From assembly GCF_011043775.1 (NCBI RefSeq), contig NZ_JAAKXY010000002.1:62001-126000 (forward strand): 64,000 bases of DNA. Direction: 5' to 3'. Below are positions 29,002 through 53,133 of this stretch, piece after piece (the stretch's first letter is position 1; each line of letters opens with the position of its first letter). The stretch is from Natronolimnobius sp. AArcel1 (lineage in GTDB: Archaea > Halobacteriota > Halobacteria > Halobacteriales > Natrialbaceae). A program made the translations under genes and the position numbers. The notes beneath the pieces are model-generated. The model was not told where the DNA came from. It ran no database searches and saw only the letters and a program-made list of their open reading frames with translations.

Positions 29002-29232
29002 ATGGTTCACGCGTTTATCATGGTCAAGACAGCCGCCGGGAAGTCCGAGGGACTCCTCGCCAATATCAGGGACTTCGACCGCGCCAGCGACGCTCACATT
29101 GTCGCCGGAACCTACGACATCATCGTCGAAGTCGACGCCGAGGAAGTCTATGACATCCTCGAGACCGTCTCCTCGAATATCCAGGGTCTCGAAGGGGTGA
29201 CCGAGACAAAGACGTATATTGCGATGGACTAA
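29002..29232 (+). CDS. Free-standing Lrp/AsnC ligand-binding (RAM) domain protein, copy 2
   Basis: A second 76-residue RAM-only protein, with MVHAFIMVKTAAGKSEGLL, SDAHIVAGTYDIIVEVDAEE and VTETKTYIAMD. It has the same length as copy 1, the same AHIVAG motif and the same TYIAMD ending, so the two are paralogues. It is transcribed divergently from the TrkA-like gene, so one TrkA-like gene is flanked by both copies. It has no DNA-binding part; it may combine with copy 1 or with full-length Lrp proteins. The hairpin array begins 19 bases after its stop codon. Confidence 0.85.
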   Translation: MVHAFIMVKTAAGKSEGLLANIRDFDRASDAHIVAGTYDIIVEVDAEEVYDILETVSSNIQGLEGVTETKTYIAMD

Positions 29233-29251
29233 GAACGAAGTTTTGCGCTGC

Positions 29252-29388
29252 GGGTGCGCTACAGGCGCACCCTCGGCAAAATCTTCAAAAGAGCGCACCG
29301 CGCTCTTTTGGACTGGGCGATTCCTTCGGAATCGCTTGCAGTCGGGCGGCGCTGCCGCCCGACGACCTCGCGGGATCTTCGATCCCGC
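29252..29388 (+). repeat. Array of five consecutive perfect hairpins
   Basis: Five inverted repeats without a mismatch stand in a row: 29252-29272 (8-bp stem, 5-base loop), 29286-29310 (11 bp, loop ACC), 29317-29335 (8 bp, loop TTC), 29341-29363 (10 bp, loop GCT) and 29370-29388 (8 bp, loop TTC). Spacers are 13, 6, 5 and 6 bases. The stem sequences are unrelated to one another. It follows the RAM gene and faces the E1-alpha gene, so it could also act as a bidirectional terminator, but one hairpin would do for that. Confidence 0.85.
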
Positions 29389-29595
29389 TCAGATTCGATT
29401 AAAAGCACTCCTCCTCCCTTCGCTCCGTTCCGTCGCTCACATCAGTCGTCGGCCCGCTCGCTCCCCGTGGTCGCTCGCGGTCGGGAACGGTGTAATAGCC
29501 TGCCCTCCCCCGGATCGTGCGCCGCTCGAGATGCTCGCGGCGCACTTACGGCCAGTCTCTTCGACGACTGTCGCTGATAGTCCCTGGTTGGAGGC
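29389..29595. other. Non-coding remainder between the hairpin array and the E1-alpha gene
   Basis: About 200 bases of C-rich, purine-poor sequence on the plus strand with no good reading frame. One weaker inverted repeat, 29519-29525 with 29537-29543, has a 7-bp stem and an 11-base loop. The base composition (repeated CGCTC, CCTCC) looks unlike coding sequence here and may be decayed element material. Confidence 0.4.
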
Positions 29596-49190: not shown

Positions 49191-50309
49191 ATGGCACGGA
49201 CAGCACAGGAATTCGGTGATTGGCCGCTCAAACGGCTTATGACCGAGGTCGTCGGCTCGGGGCCAAAATCGGCCGACGATATGTCTCGCGAGCAAGCACG
49301 TGAAGCGCTCCAACGAATCTTCGCCGGAGAACCCGAGGAAACGACCCTCGGTGCATTCTGGCTGGCAAATCGCTGGAAGCGAAACACGCCCGAAGAACTT
49401 GCGGGCTATACCGACGTCATGCGCGAGGAGTCGGTTATCACCGCCGAACCCGAGTGTGACCCCGTCGACTGTGGCGCGAACTACGACGGCAAACACACCT
49501 CCGCCCTCCTCGGTGTCGGGGCTGGCGTCGTCGCCGCTGCTGCAGGTACCCCCGTCGTCGTCCACTCCGGCGACGGCGTCCCGACACAGAAAGAAACCGC
49601 CTACAAACACGTCCTCGACGAACTCGGCGTCCGAATCGATCTCGAGCCCGAGGAAAGCGCCGACATGGTCGACGAGACCGGCTTCGGCTTCTACTACCAA
49701 CCAGCGTTCAACCCCGCCATCGACGACCTCTACGACCGACGCGACGAGATGGGCGTCCGAACGTTTATCAACACCATCGAAACCGTCGCCAACCCCGCCA
49801 ACGCCGACGTCCATCTCGGCTCGTTCTACCACCTCGCGTTCGCGAAGAAGTTGACCAGTCTAATCCAAGACAGCGCCGAACTCGAGTACTCCCGCGCGAT
49901 CTTTTTCCAGGGCATGGAAGGCTACGACGATATTCGCCCAGGATATACGAAAGTCGCCGAATGGAACGACAGCGAGGCGCGTAGCGCCTCGGACGATGCG
50001 AGCGGCGACGAGCCGCGAGCAGGCGACGACCTCGAGGACTTCGAAATCGAAACCGCAGACTACGGCATGGAGATGGACAGCGATGACCTCGCCGTCGACG
50101 ATGTCCGCAGCGACTCCGCGGCCATCACCGAGACCGTCCTCGCCGGCGACCGCGACGACCACTTCGCCGACGCAATCGCGCTCAACGCCGCGTTTCGGAT
50201 CTATGCCCGCGACGACGTGTCTGACCTCGAGACCGGCCTCGAGCGAGCGCGCACTGTGATTGACGATGGCAGCGCAGCGGCCGTCCTCGAGGACCTGCGC
50301 GCGTTCTGA
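49191..50309 (+). CDS. Anthranilate phosphoribosyltransferase-like protein (TrpD2/YbiB type)
   Basis: A 372-residue protein of the TrpD2 branch. It starts MARTAQEFGDWPLKRLMTEV; the glycine-rich phosphate-binding segment is CGANYDGKHTSALLGVGAG (about residues 92-110), followed by VVVHSGDGVPTQKETAYK and FGFYYQPAFNPAIDDLY. TrpD2 proteins bind nucleic acid rather than making tryptophan, so a role in tryptophan synthesis is not likely. Residues about 260-276 (SEARSASDDASGDEPRAG) look out of place: their DNA (49970-50017) holds two hairpins and appears to be an in-frame palindromic insert. It is divergent from the isoaspartyl peptidase gene. Confidence 0.85.
   Translation: MARTAQEFGDWPLKRLMTEVVGSGPKSADDMSREQAREALQRIFAGEPEETTLGAFWLANRWKRNTPEELAGYTDVMREESVITAEPECDPVDCGANYDGKHTSALLGVGAGVVAAAAGTPVVVHSGDGVPTQKETAYKHVLDELGVRIDLEPEESADMVDETGFGFYYQPAFNPAIDDLYDRRDEMGVRTFINTIETVANPANADVHLGSFYHLAFAKKLTSLIQDSAELEYSRAIFFQGMEGYDDIRPGYTKVAEWNDSEARSASDDASGDEPRAGDDLEDFEIETADYGMEMDSDDLAVDDVRSDSAAITETVLAGDRDDHFADAIALNAAFRIYARDDVSDLETGLERARTVIDDGSAAAVLEDLRAF
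49970..50017 (+). repeat. In-frame hairpin pair inside the TrpD2-like gene
   Basis: Hairpin 1: an 8-bp stem, 49973-49980 with 49984-49991, loop GTA. After 10 bases comes hairpin 2: a 5-bp stem, 50002-50006 with 50012-50016, loop GACGA. The frame stays open, and the encoded residues are Ser/Ala/Asp/Arg-rich, unlike the flanking protein. The edges are my estimate. Confidence 0.6.
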
Positions 50310-52314: not shown

Positions 52315-53133
52315 TCAGAACCCATCGGCGAACTTATCCCGGCGATTGATATCGAGTTCGCTCACACTCGAGCCCTCGTGGCTCGCCGCGAAGATGATAG
52401 CGTTTGCGACCTCTCGTGGGTCACTCGCCTCGTCCTCGTCGAATACCTCTTCGAACGTCGAGCCGTCGGTTGTCTCGAATTCCGAGCGCACTTCGGCAGG
52501 GTTGACGATAGTCACCCCGACGCCTTCGTCCCCAACCTGTGCGGCCACGCTCTTGGCGAAGCCACGGACCCACCACTTCGACGCCGTTCACGAGAGCGGA
52601 ACTCTCGTGAGCCCGCCAGAACCAGGGGTTCTGGCGACGGCATAGACGGGGTTGAACGAGCGCGGATACTGCCCCGCGAAACTGCTGACGAAAACGATGT
52701 GTCCCGCGCGCTCGCGGACGTGTGGAATCGCCGCTCGAGTCGCATAGAAGACGCCGTCCACGTTCGTTTCCTGCATCGTCTCGTACTCCTCGGTCGAGAG
52801 GTCCTCGACGTCGCTGCCACGTGAGAGGCCCGCGTTGTTCACCAGAACGTCGATCCCGCCGAACGTGTCGACGGCGTCCTCGATGAGTGAGTTGACTGCT
52901 GCCTCATCGCGGACGTTCGTCGGAATGACCAGCGTGTCAACGCCATGTTCGTCCTCGAGATCAGTCACGAGTGACTCGAGTGTGTCCTCGCTTCTGGCTG
53001 CGAGCACGACGTTCGCACCGCACTCGGCGAACCCTCGAGCGGTCGCCTCGCCGATACCGGAACTCGCGCCGGTGACCAAAAACAGATCCCGGCGCGACGG
53101 ACGCGACGGGCACGACGGGCACAACGGACGCAA
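52315..53133 (-). pseudogene. Short-chain dehydrogenase/reductase, split by a hairpin insert
   Basis: A classical SDR whose two parts stay in one frame. Part one (53133-52588) has the cofactor motif VTGASSGIGEATARG, VLVNNAGLSRG and the catalytic serine in IVFVSSFAGQ, and reaches the catalytic tyrosine in FNPVYA. There it meets an 18-codon insert with an in-frame TGA. After the insert the normal sequence resumes as ASKWWVRGFAKSVAAQVG, with the catalytic lysine, and runs to 52315. The active site would read YAASK without the insert. The apparent start is TTG, inside a 9-base tandem repeat, 17 bases after the carboxypeptidase stop. The gene is probably inactive unless the stop is read through. 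Confidence 0.88.
52586..52639 (-). repeat. 54-base hairpin-pair insert within the SDR gene
   Basis: Hairpin A has a 9-bp stem, 52615-52623 with 52627-52635, and loop AGG on the plus strand. Hairpin B has a 9-bp stem, 52588-52596 with 52602-52610, and loop CGGAA. Removal of exactly 54 bases restores the YxxxK motif and the frame. The edges can shift by one base. No target duplication longer than one base is visible. Confidence 0.8.

Follow-up and report, generated by a model that had tools for sequence, protein, structure and literature searches.

What is a run of five perfect hairpins doing directly behind an archaeal gene, and how was it assembled there? The window, i.e. the whole 64-kb stretch of Natronolimnobius sp. 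AArcel1 DNA that was analyzed, contains five perfect inverted repeats at 29252-29388; this confirms the five mismatch-free stems that a sequence-only reading had reported, in coordinates as well as in stem and loop lengths. The array starts directly 3' of the stop codon of a small RAM gene, which has relatives at ~80 haloarchaeal loci (the nearest named ones are from Natrialbaceae), and it lies between this gene and a convergent dehydrogenase E1 gene. The locus consists of the following features:

29002..29232, plus strand: upstream gene, an ORF for a small Lrp/AsnC ligand-binding (RAM) protein (Pfam AsnC_trans_reg, E 2.9e-10)
29233..29281, plus strand: terminator-like palindrome, CGAAG-TTTTGC-GCTGC-[hairpin 1]-TCG-GCAAAA, with T-tracts on both strands
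29252-29272, plus strand: hairpin 1, the palindrome's own hairpin, stem 8 bp, loop 5 (GGGTGCGC tacag GCGCACCC)
29286-29310, plus strand: hairpin 2, stem 11 bp, loop 3 (CAAAAGAGCGC acc GCGCTCTTTTG)
29317-29335, plus strand: hairpin 3, stem 8 bp, loop 3 (GCGATTCC ttc GGAATCGC)
29341-29363, plus strand: hairpin 4, stem 10 bp, loop 3 (GTCGGGCGGC gct GCCGCCCGAC)
29370-29388, plus strand: hairpin 5, stem 8 bp, loop 3 (GCGGGATC ttc GATCCCGC)
29393..29555, no strand assigned: further conserved intergenic module, itself dispersed (ATTCGATTAAAAGCACTCC ... GTCGTCGGCCCGCTCGCTCC ... CCTGCCCTCCCCCG ... GGCCAGT)

The simplest explanation would be chance clustering of inverted repeats in GC-rich sequence, and the window does have a G+C content of 61%. 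The sequence-only reading had considered that chance would hardly produce such a run and had proposed a comparison with shuffled sequence. More than one such hairpin was found in none of 5000 dinucleotide shuffles of 29233-29420, and the 64-kb window contains four adjacent hairpin pairs (three in the array and one in an SDR gene, 52588-52636) against a mean of 0.15 per shuffled 64-kb window; both results agree with that judgment. The RNA fold of the array context (29240-29400) has an energy of -94.5 kcal/mol, whereas shuffles gave -59.6 +/- 4.3 kcal/mol (z = -8.2). Related sequence also occurs in at least 113 of 125 genomes of the family, representing 25 of 29 genera, with some matches covering the downstream module only. 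Against the shuffles and these homologous copies, the probability of chance clustering is practically nil. Protein coding of the array was rejected, as the module lengths (19, 23 and 25 nt, plus linkers) are not multiples of three and the frame is lost. Rfam searches with the array gave sub-threshold matches only, there was no phage match, and the two plasmid matches were both unannotated.

The terminator-like palindrome is not restricted to this gene. Its sequence is also located directly 3' of stop codons in many other genes, and in one relative (L197) the bare palindrome with a single hairpin occupies the 60-bp gap between convergent genes. As transcription in Haloferax terminates at hairpins and T stretches (PMC7237163), the host palindrome is probably a bidirectional transcription terminator. 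It is conceivable that the whole array, too, is an RNA structure native to the 3' UTR or terminator, selected on the transcript for termination or protection from nucleases. A same-strand gene is located upstream of 49 of 55 distinct copies, most of which start no more than ~10 nt from its stop codon and have TTTTGC just 3' of the stop (genes in the relatives were called by a simple codon-composition rule); this placement, the T-tracts, the covariation described below and the Haloferax precedent are all consistent with such a structure. The module at 29393-29555 (GTCGTCGGCCCGCTCGCTC core) occurs in many copies per relative genome, also at places where the hairpins are missing.

When arrays with and without given hairpins were compared, the hairpins were found to be present or absent pairwise. 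Placed side by side, the arrays have a fixed set of stems, linkers and order, and it is the subset that differs from copy to copy. Single units are ~50-62 bp long and consist of two perfect hairpins with a 5-7-base linker. Type A has the form CTGA[GCGnnATC hairpin]GAGGTnC[hairpin]TTGA or variants of it (96 stretches, counting those that are nested), and type B the form TsGTT[hairpin]TGATGA[hairpin]AACsA (54-62 bp, 31 examples). B units have terminal inverted repeats, TCGTTCGARA (TsGTTCGARA) at the start and its complement at the end, which are weak in A units. Two units were located in the array, the ends of several units being ambiguous by 1-3 bases:

29282..29392, minus strand: unit U3, type A reversed, TCTT[hairpin 2]GA...CCTC[hairpin 5]TCAG, 58 bp without the inner unit
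29313..29365, plus strand: unit U4, in the U3 linker GACCTC, CTGG[hairpin 3]TTGCA[hairpin 4]GA, 53 bp, register uncertain within 3 bases

The nested pair measures 111 bp. U3 was seen both with and without U4; it is uninterrupted after RAM or other genes in L022, L028, L035, L039, L238 and L270, and its empty site, GCAAAA^CTTCG, is present in L197 and L225. As read from these alignments, hairpin 1 is that of the host palindrome, hairpins 2 and 5 are one unit inserted there, and the linker of that unit has in turn received a second one, hairpins 3 and 4. At least two other copies of the stretch with hairpins 2-5 were detected in this genome (96% and 91% identity); hairpin 1 is missing from them and lies outside the stretch that they have in common. 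The idea that the array is a compound form of the element in the SDR gene was borne out in that it comprises two such two-hairpin units, nested, beside a terminator-like hairpin.

The gene end after RAM orthologues exists in several states. It has no unit in L197, L032 and L050, B only in L031, L075 and L080, B whose linker contains an A unit in L225, U3 only in L039 and L238, and U3 with U4 inside in the window. L031 and L032 are near-identical, and each represents the empty site for the other's unit. Because the sets of units differ among orthologous gene ends, transposition of the whole array as one copy was rejected. In L071, an A unit is located within a B linker (TGA^TGA) in the orientation opposite to that in L225, and insertion there therefore goes both ways. 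A further locus after a RAM gene (L066) has the first hairpin of a B unit joined to the tail of the outer A unit and no terminator hairpin. This B/U3 hybrid suggests recombination between units, and gene conversion or recombination between gene ends, of which L066 resembles a product, could explain part of the spread. Two related loci in one genome (L271 and L272 in G016) contain hairpin arrays in a common repeat context, and L272 also contains an S15-Halobacteria ribosomal leader at 1022-1087.

Units were also found within protein-coding genes. An IS200-type tnpA gene is empty in L305 (...CCGAAG^TATAGA) and contains, in three genomes (L306-L308), a single A unit of 51 bp, which adds 17 in-frame codons and no stop. 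The tnpA of L288/L304 has an additional 58-bp B unit in the hairpin loop region of the first unit (GCAAAGCGAAG^CTTTGC). The SDR gene in the window contains the following insertion:

52584..52637, minus strand: 54-bp insertion of the two-hairpin kind in the SDR gene, flanked by G and C and containing an in-frame TGA

This unit corresponds to 18 codons, and the reading frame is kept. The site is filled in G000 and in G106 (L375), where 52 bp are inserted and the loops differ, and it is empty in all 28 further genomes in which it was read. The SDR gene with the unit may be a pseudogene or a case of translational bypass. No target duplication was detected in any empty/filled pair, whether in tnpA, the SDR gene or the gene end. 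Elsewhere, a pair like that in the SDR gene is fixed within an apparent single IS605/TnpB-type element in several genomes (L277-L283). The window also has a lone C-G-closed triloop hairpin at 49973-49991 (CGAGGCGC gta GCGCCTCG), which follows GACAG, as does one array stem, and which is possibly the TrpD2-like case mentioned in the sequence-only reading.

The two unit types were traced in database scans in which few candidates were scored per genome. A 62-bp B unit used as query had matches in at least 270 of 391 Halobacteria genomes and 69 of 86 genera; these were mostly full length, and nearly all family labels of the Halobacteria sample were represented. The number of B matches per genome was at least 10 in this genome and reached at least 51 in another. 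Outside the family, the 11-bp stem of hairpin 2 is by contrast almost absent (2 of ~280 genomes, as against 28 of ~110 within it). The flanks of B units differ between sites. In the first and less biased set, G preceded the unit and C followed it in 30 of 31 cases each (in the second set, the query itself starts with G and ends with C). A units had no clear target motif. Copies at different genes of the same genome were 90% identical and those at orthologous loci in other genomes 87%, as compared with 80% for other pairs, and both excesses were significant by permutation, although copies and counts are not phylogenetically independent. Units were therefore copied within genomes, and their positions were partly inherited.

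Units are often located in terminator-like palindromes and other hairpins. An IS605-type element in this genome carries three units: one within tnpA, one at the end of tnpB, and one, a B unit, in the loop of its right-end palindrome (L287). B units were also observed within array hairpins of L328 and L331. A simple hairpin, taken as one with an outer stem of 6 bp at the junction, was the insertion site of 7 of 73 B units, against a null mean of 3.6. This is not clearly above the null, and targeting of hairpins by B is thus a tendency at most.

The stems are strongly constrained, or corrected, to pair: 98.4% of cells were paired, 12 of 35 pairs had changed on both sides, and this covariation exceeded that of all 500 shuffles and all slid versions. 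The sequence-only reading had held that structure rather than sequence is preserved, with stems that are all different and loops that are constant. It was right about the pairing and about loop length; however, stems and linkers are conserved in sequence among copies too, each of those in the array recurs nearly identical at dozens of further loci, and the letters of the loops are highly variable.

The pattern of changes also has a bearing on whether the structure is used as RNA or as DNA. Selection on a sense RNA would tolerate G.U pairs. In a set of 423 hairpins that were retrieved through their linkers alone, sense G.U mismatches (41) were as frequent as sense A.C mismatches (40), which points to a role at the DNA level and disagrees with sense-strand selection, under which G.U should be favored. 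The loops of perfect stems were GNA or TNC in 77% of cases (214 of 277 distinct loops) versus 14% in other C-G-closed triloops. C-GNA-G is known as an extra-stable mini-hairpin triloop of DNA, in contrast to RNA. GNA and TNC loops were nearly equally distributed between the strands (105 and 109), a symmetry that is again not expected of a structure selected on the transcript. When pairs with the same stem and different loops were compared within genomes, 31 of 70 had loops that were exact reverse complements (including GCT/AGC), which is above the null; in L003, from the same genome as the array, the loop of hairpin 4 is inverted to agc and that of hairpin 5 to gaa. Together, the GNA/TNC symmetry and the loop inversions suggest that the hairpins form in DNA and that loops are changed by inversion or template switching. 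It should be noted that a structure used as RNA on both strands may yield the same strand symmetries. A native RNA structure would also have to account for the units found at unrelated sites throughout the class and within the tnpA, tnpB and SDR genes, and on balance we consider it unlikely.

Alternatively, template switching or fold-back synthesis at C-GNA-G sites might have created the hairpins where they now stand, a process that would perfect stems and flip loops. The perfect stems, the inverted loops and the C-G-closed GNA/TNC loops all have the appearance of such products. However, copying from elsewhere is required by the clean empty sites and by stems and linkers that are identical among many unrelated loci, and an origin in place is very improbable. 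The same process may still have flipped loops and perfected stems once units were inserted.

We favor, with a probability of about 80%, the reading that a host gene-end palindrome was invaded by tiny, gene-less, two-hairpin mobile elements, one nested in the other, and we infer their movement from sequence comparison. The host 3' end would have started as a palindrome composed of T-tracts and a hairpin, into which U3 (hairpins 2 and 5) would have inserted, followed by U4 (hairpins 3 and 4) in the linker of U3. The units would move as single-stranded DNA folded into two hairpins, which an enzyme supplied in trans would cut and join. IS200/IS605-type Y1 transposases use single-stranded DNA hairpins as substrates and insert without duplication. 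Because of this chemistry, the Y1 transposase (TnpA) is the best candidate, with a chance of about one in three; another enzyme, an RNA intermediate or template switching during replication might be responsible instead. No transposase is linked to the units, and their ends are unlike the end palindrome of the single IS605-type element with which they were compared. The gene's 3' end would remain functional after insertion, because hairpins and T-tracts persist.

It is also possible to regard the units as minimal PATEs, in which the left and right ends of an IS200/IS605-type element are joined and the core is deleted. The units resemble the core-deleted 52-bp PATEs of Haloquadratum in having two hairpins, a length of ~52 bp and no target duplication (PMC3119063), and this genome contains IS605-type elements. 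However, B units have terminal inverted repeats (TCGTTCGARA and its complement) and PATEs do not. In L287, the IS605-type element has a palindrome at its end (CCTCGGGG...CCCCGAGG), the one such end compared, that is unlike the unit hairpins, and this element is itself a target. PATE membership was rejected on account of the terminal repeats, and an origin from PATEs appears improbable. MITEs commonly, if not universally, generate target-site duplications and have ends related to a known transposon; membership in this class was rejected as well, with a target duplication in no empty/filled pair and no kinship to the ends of the one transposon compared.

Several other families of small repeats have features in common with the units. 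REP/BIME sequences of enterobacteria form mosaic palindromic arrays with constant linkers downstream of genes, but they alternate one palindrome family, whereas in the present arrays every position carries a stem of its own and nested insertion would account for the order. Rickettsia palindromic elements are small and can be located in frame in genes, similar to the 51-bp unit of tnpA; they are longer and differ in structure and host. The literature covered, with most subscription papers outside its scope, yielded haloarchaeal relatives only in the Haloquadratum SMR/PATE paper (PMC3119063). Like the units, SMR-A of Haloquadratum walsbyi is haloarchaeal and gene-less, has terminal inverted repeats and inserts without duplication. 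SMR-A is ~110 bp long and located mostly in near-terminal PATE/IS605 palindromes (PMC3119063), a kind of site for which the right end in L287 is the one clear case among the units. The units are 50-62 bp long, consist of two perfect hairpins and are located mostly at gene ends and other intergenic sites; this separation from SMR-A (HqIRS42/43/55) is by description, not sequence.

The closest architecture is that of the DHEs of fungal mitochondrial DNA (Paquin et al. 2000, as cited in PMC10085805 and PMC2800124). DHEs are described as two adjacent hairpins, short, gene-less, thought to be mobile and variable in their loops. For the DHEs of Allomyces, no flanking duplication is reported; for the units, presence and absence at orthologous sites showed none. 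An RNA intermediate was suggested for the Allomyces elements (PMC2800124). The comparison, between fungal mitochondria and archaeal chromosomes, is one of architecture, and the units differ from the DHEs so described in forming several families with fixed linkers and in their nesting, the G^C site of B and the C-GNA-G loops.

A broader proposal is that the units represent a class-wide, previously undescribed group of the smallest mobile units, each of two perfect DNA hairpins, which move as folded single strands without duplication, insert into one another and have built many gene 3' ends; this may be so, and we hold it slightly more doubtful than not. If true, tiny non-coding DNA would be a major overlooked source of intergenic sequence across an archaeal class, and the mitochondrial DHEs, whose mobility has long been unexplained, would have a prokaryotic counterpart in hosts that can be manipulated genetically. 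Handles on the mechanism would be provided by the G^C site, the rule of C-GNA-G loops and the inversion of loops. The units would illustrate how multi-hairpin 3' regions and interrupted genes may originate, and they would serve as a warning that covarying hairpins of this kind should not be taken for RNA families.
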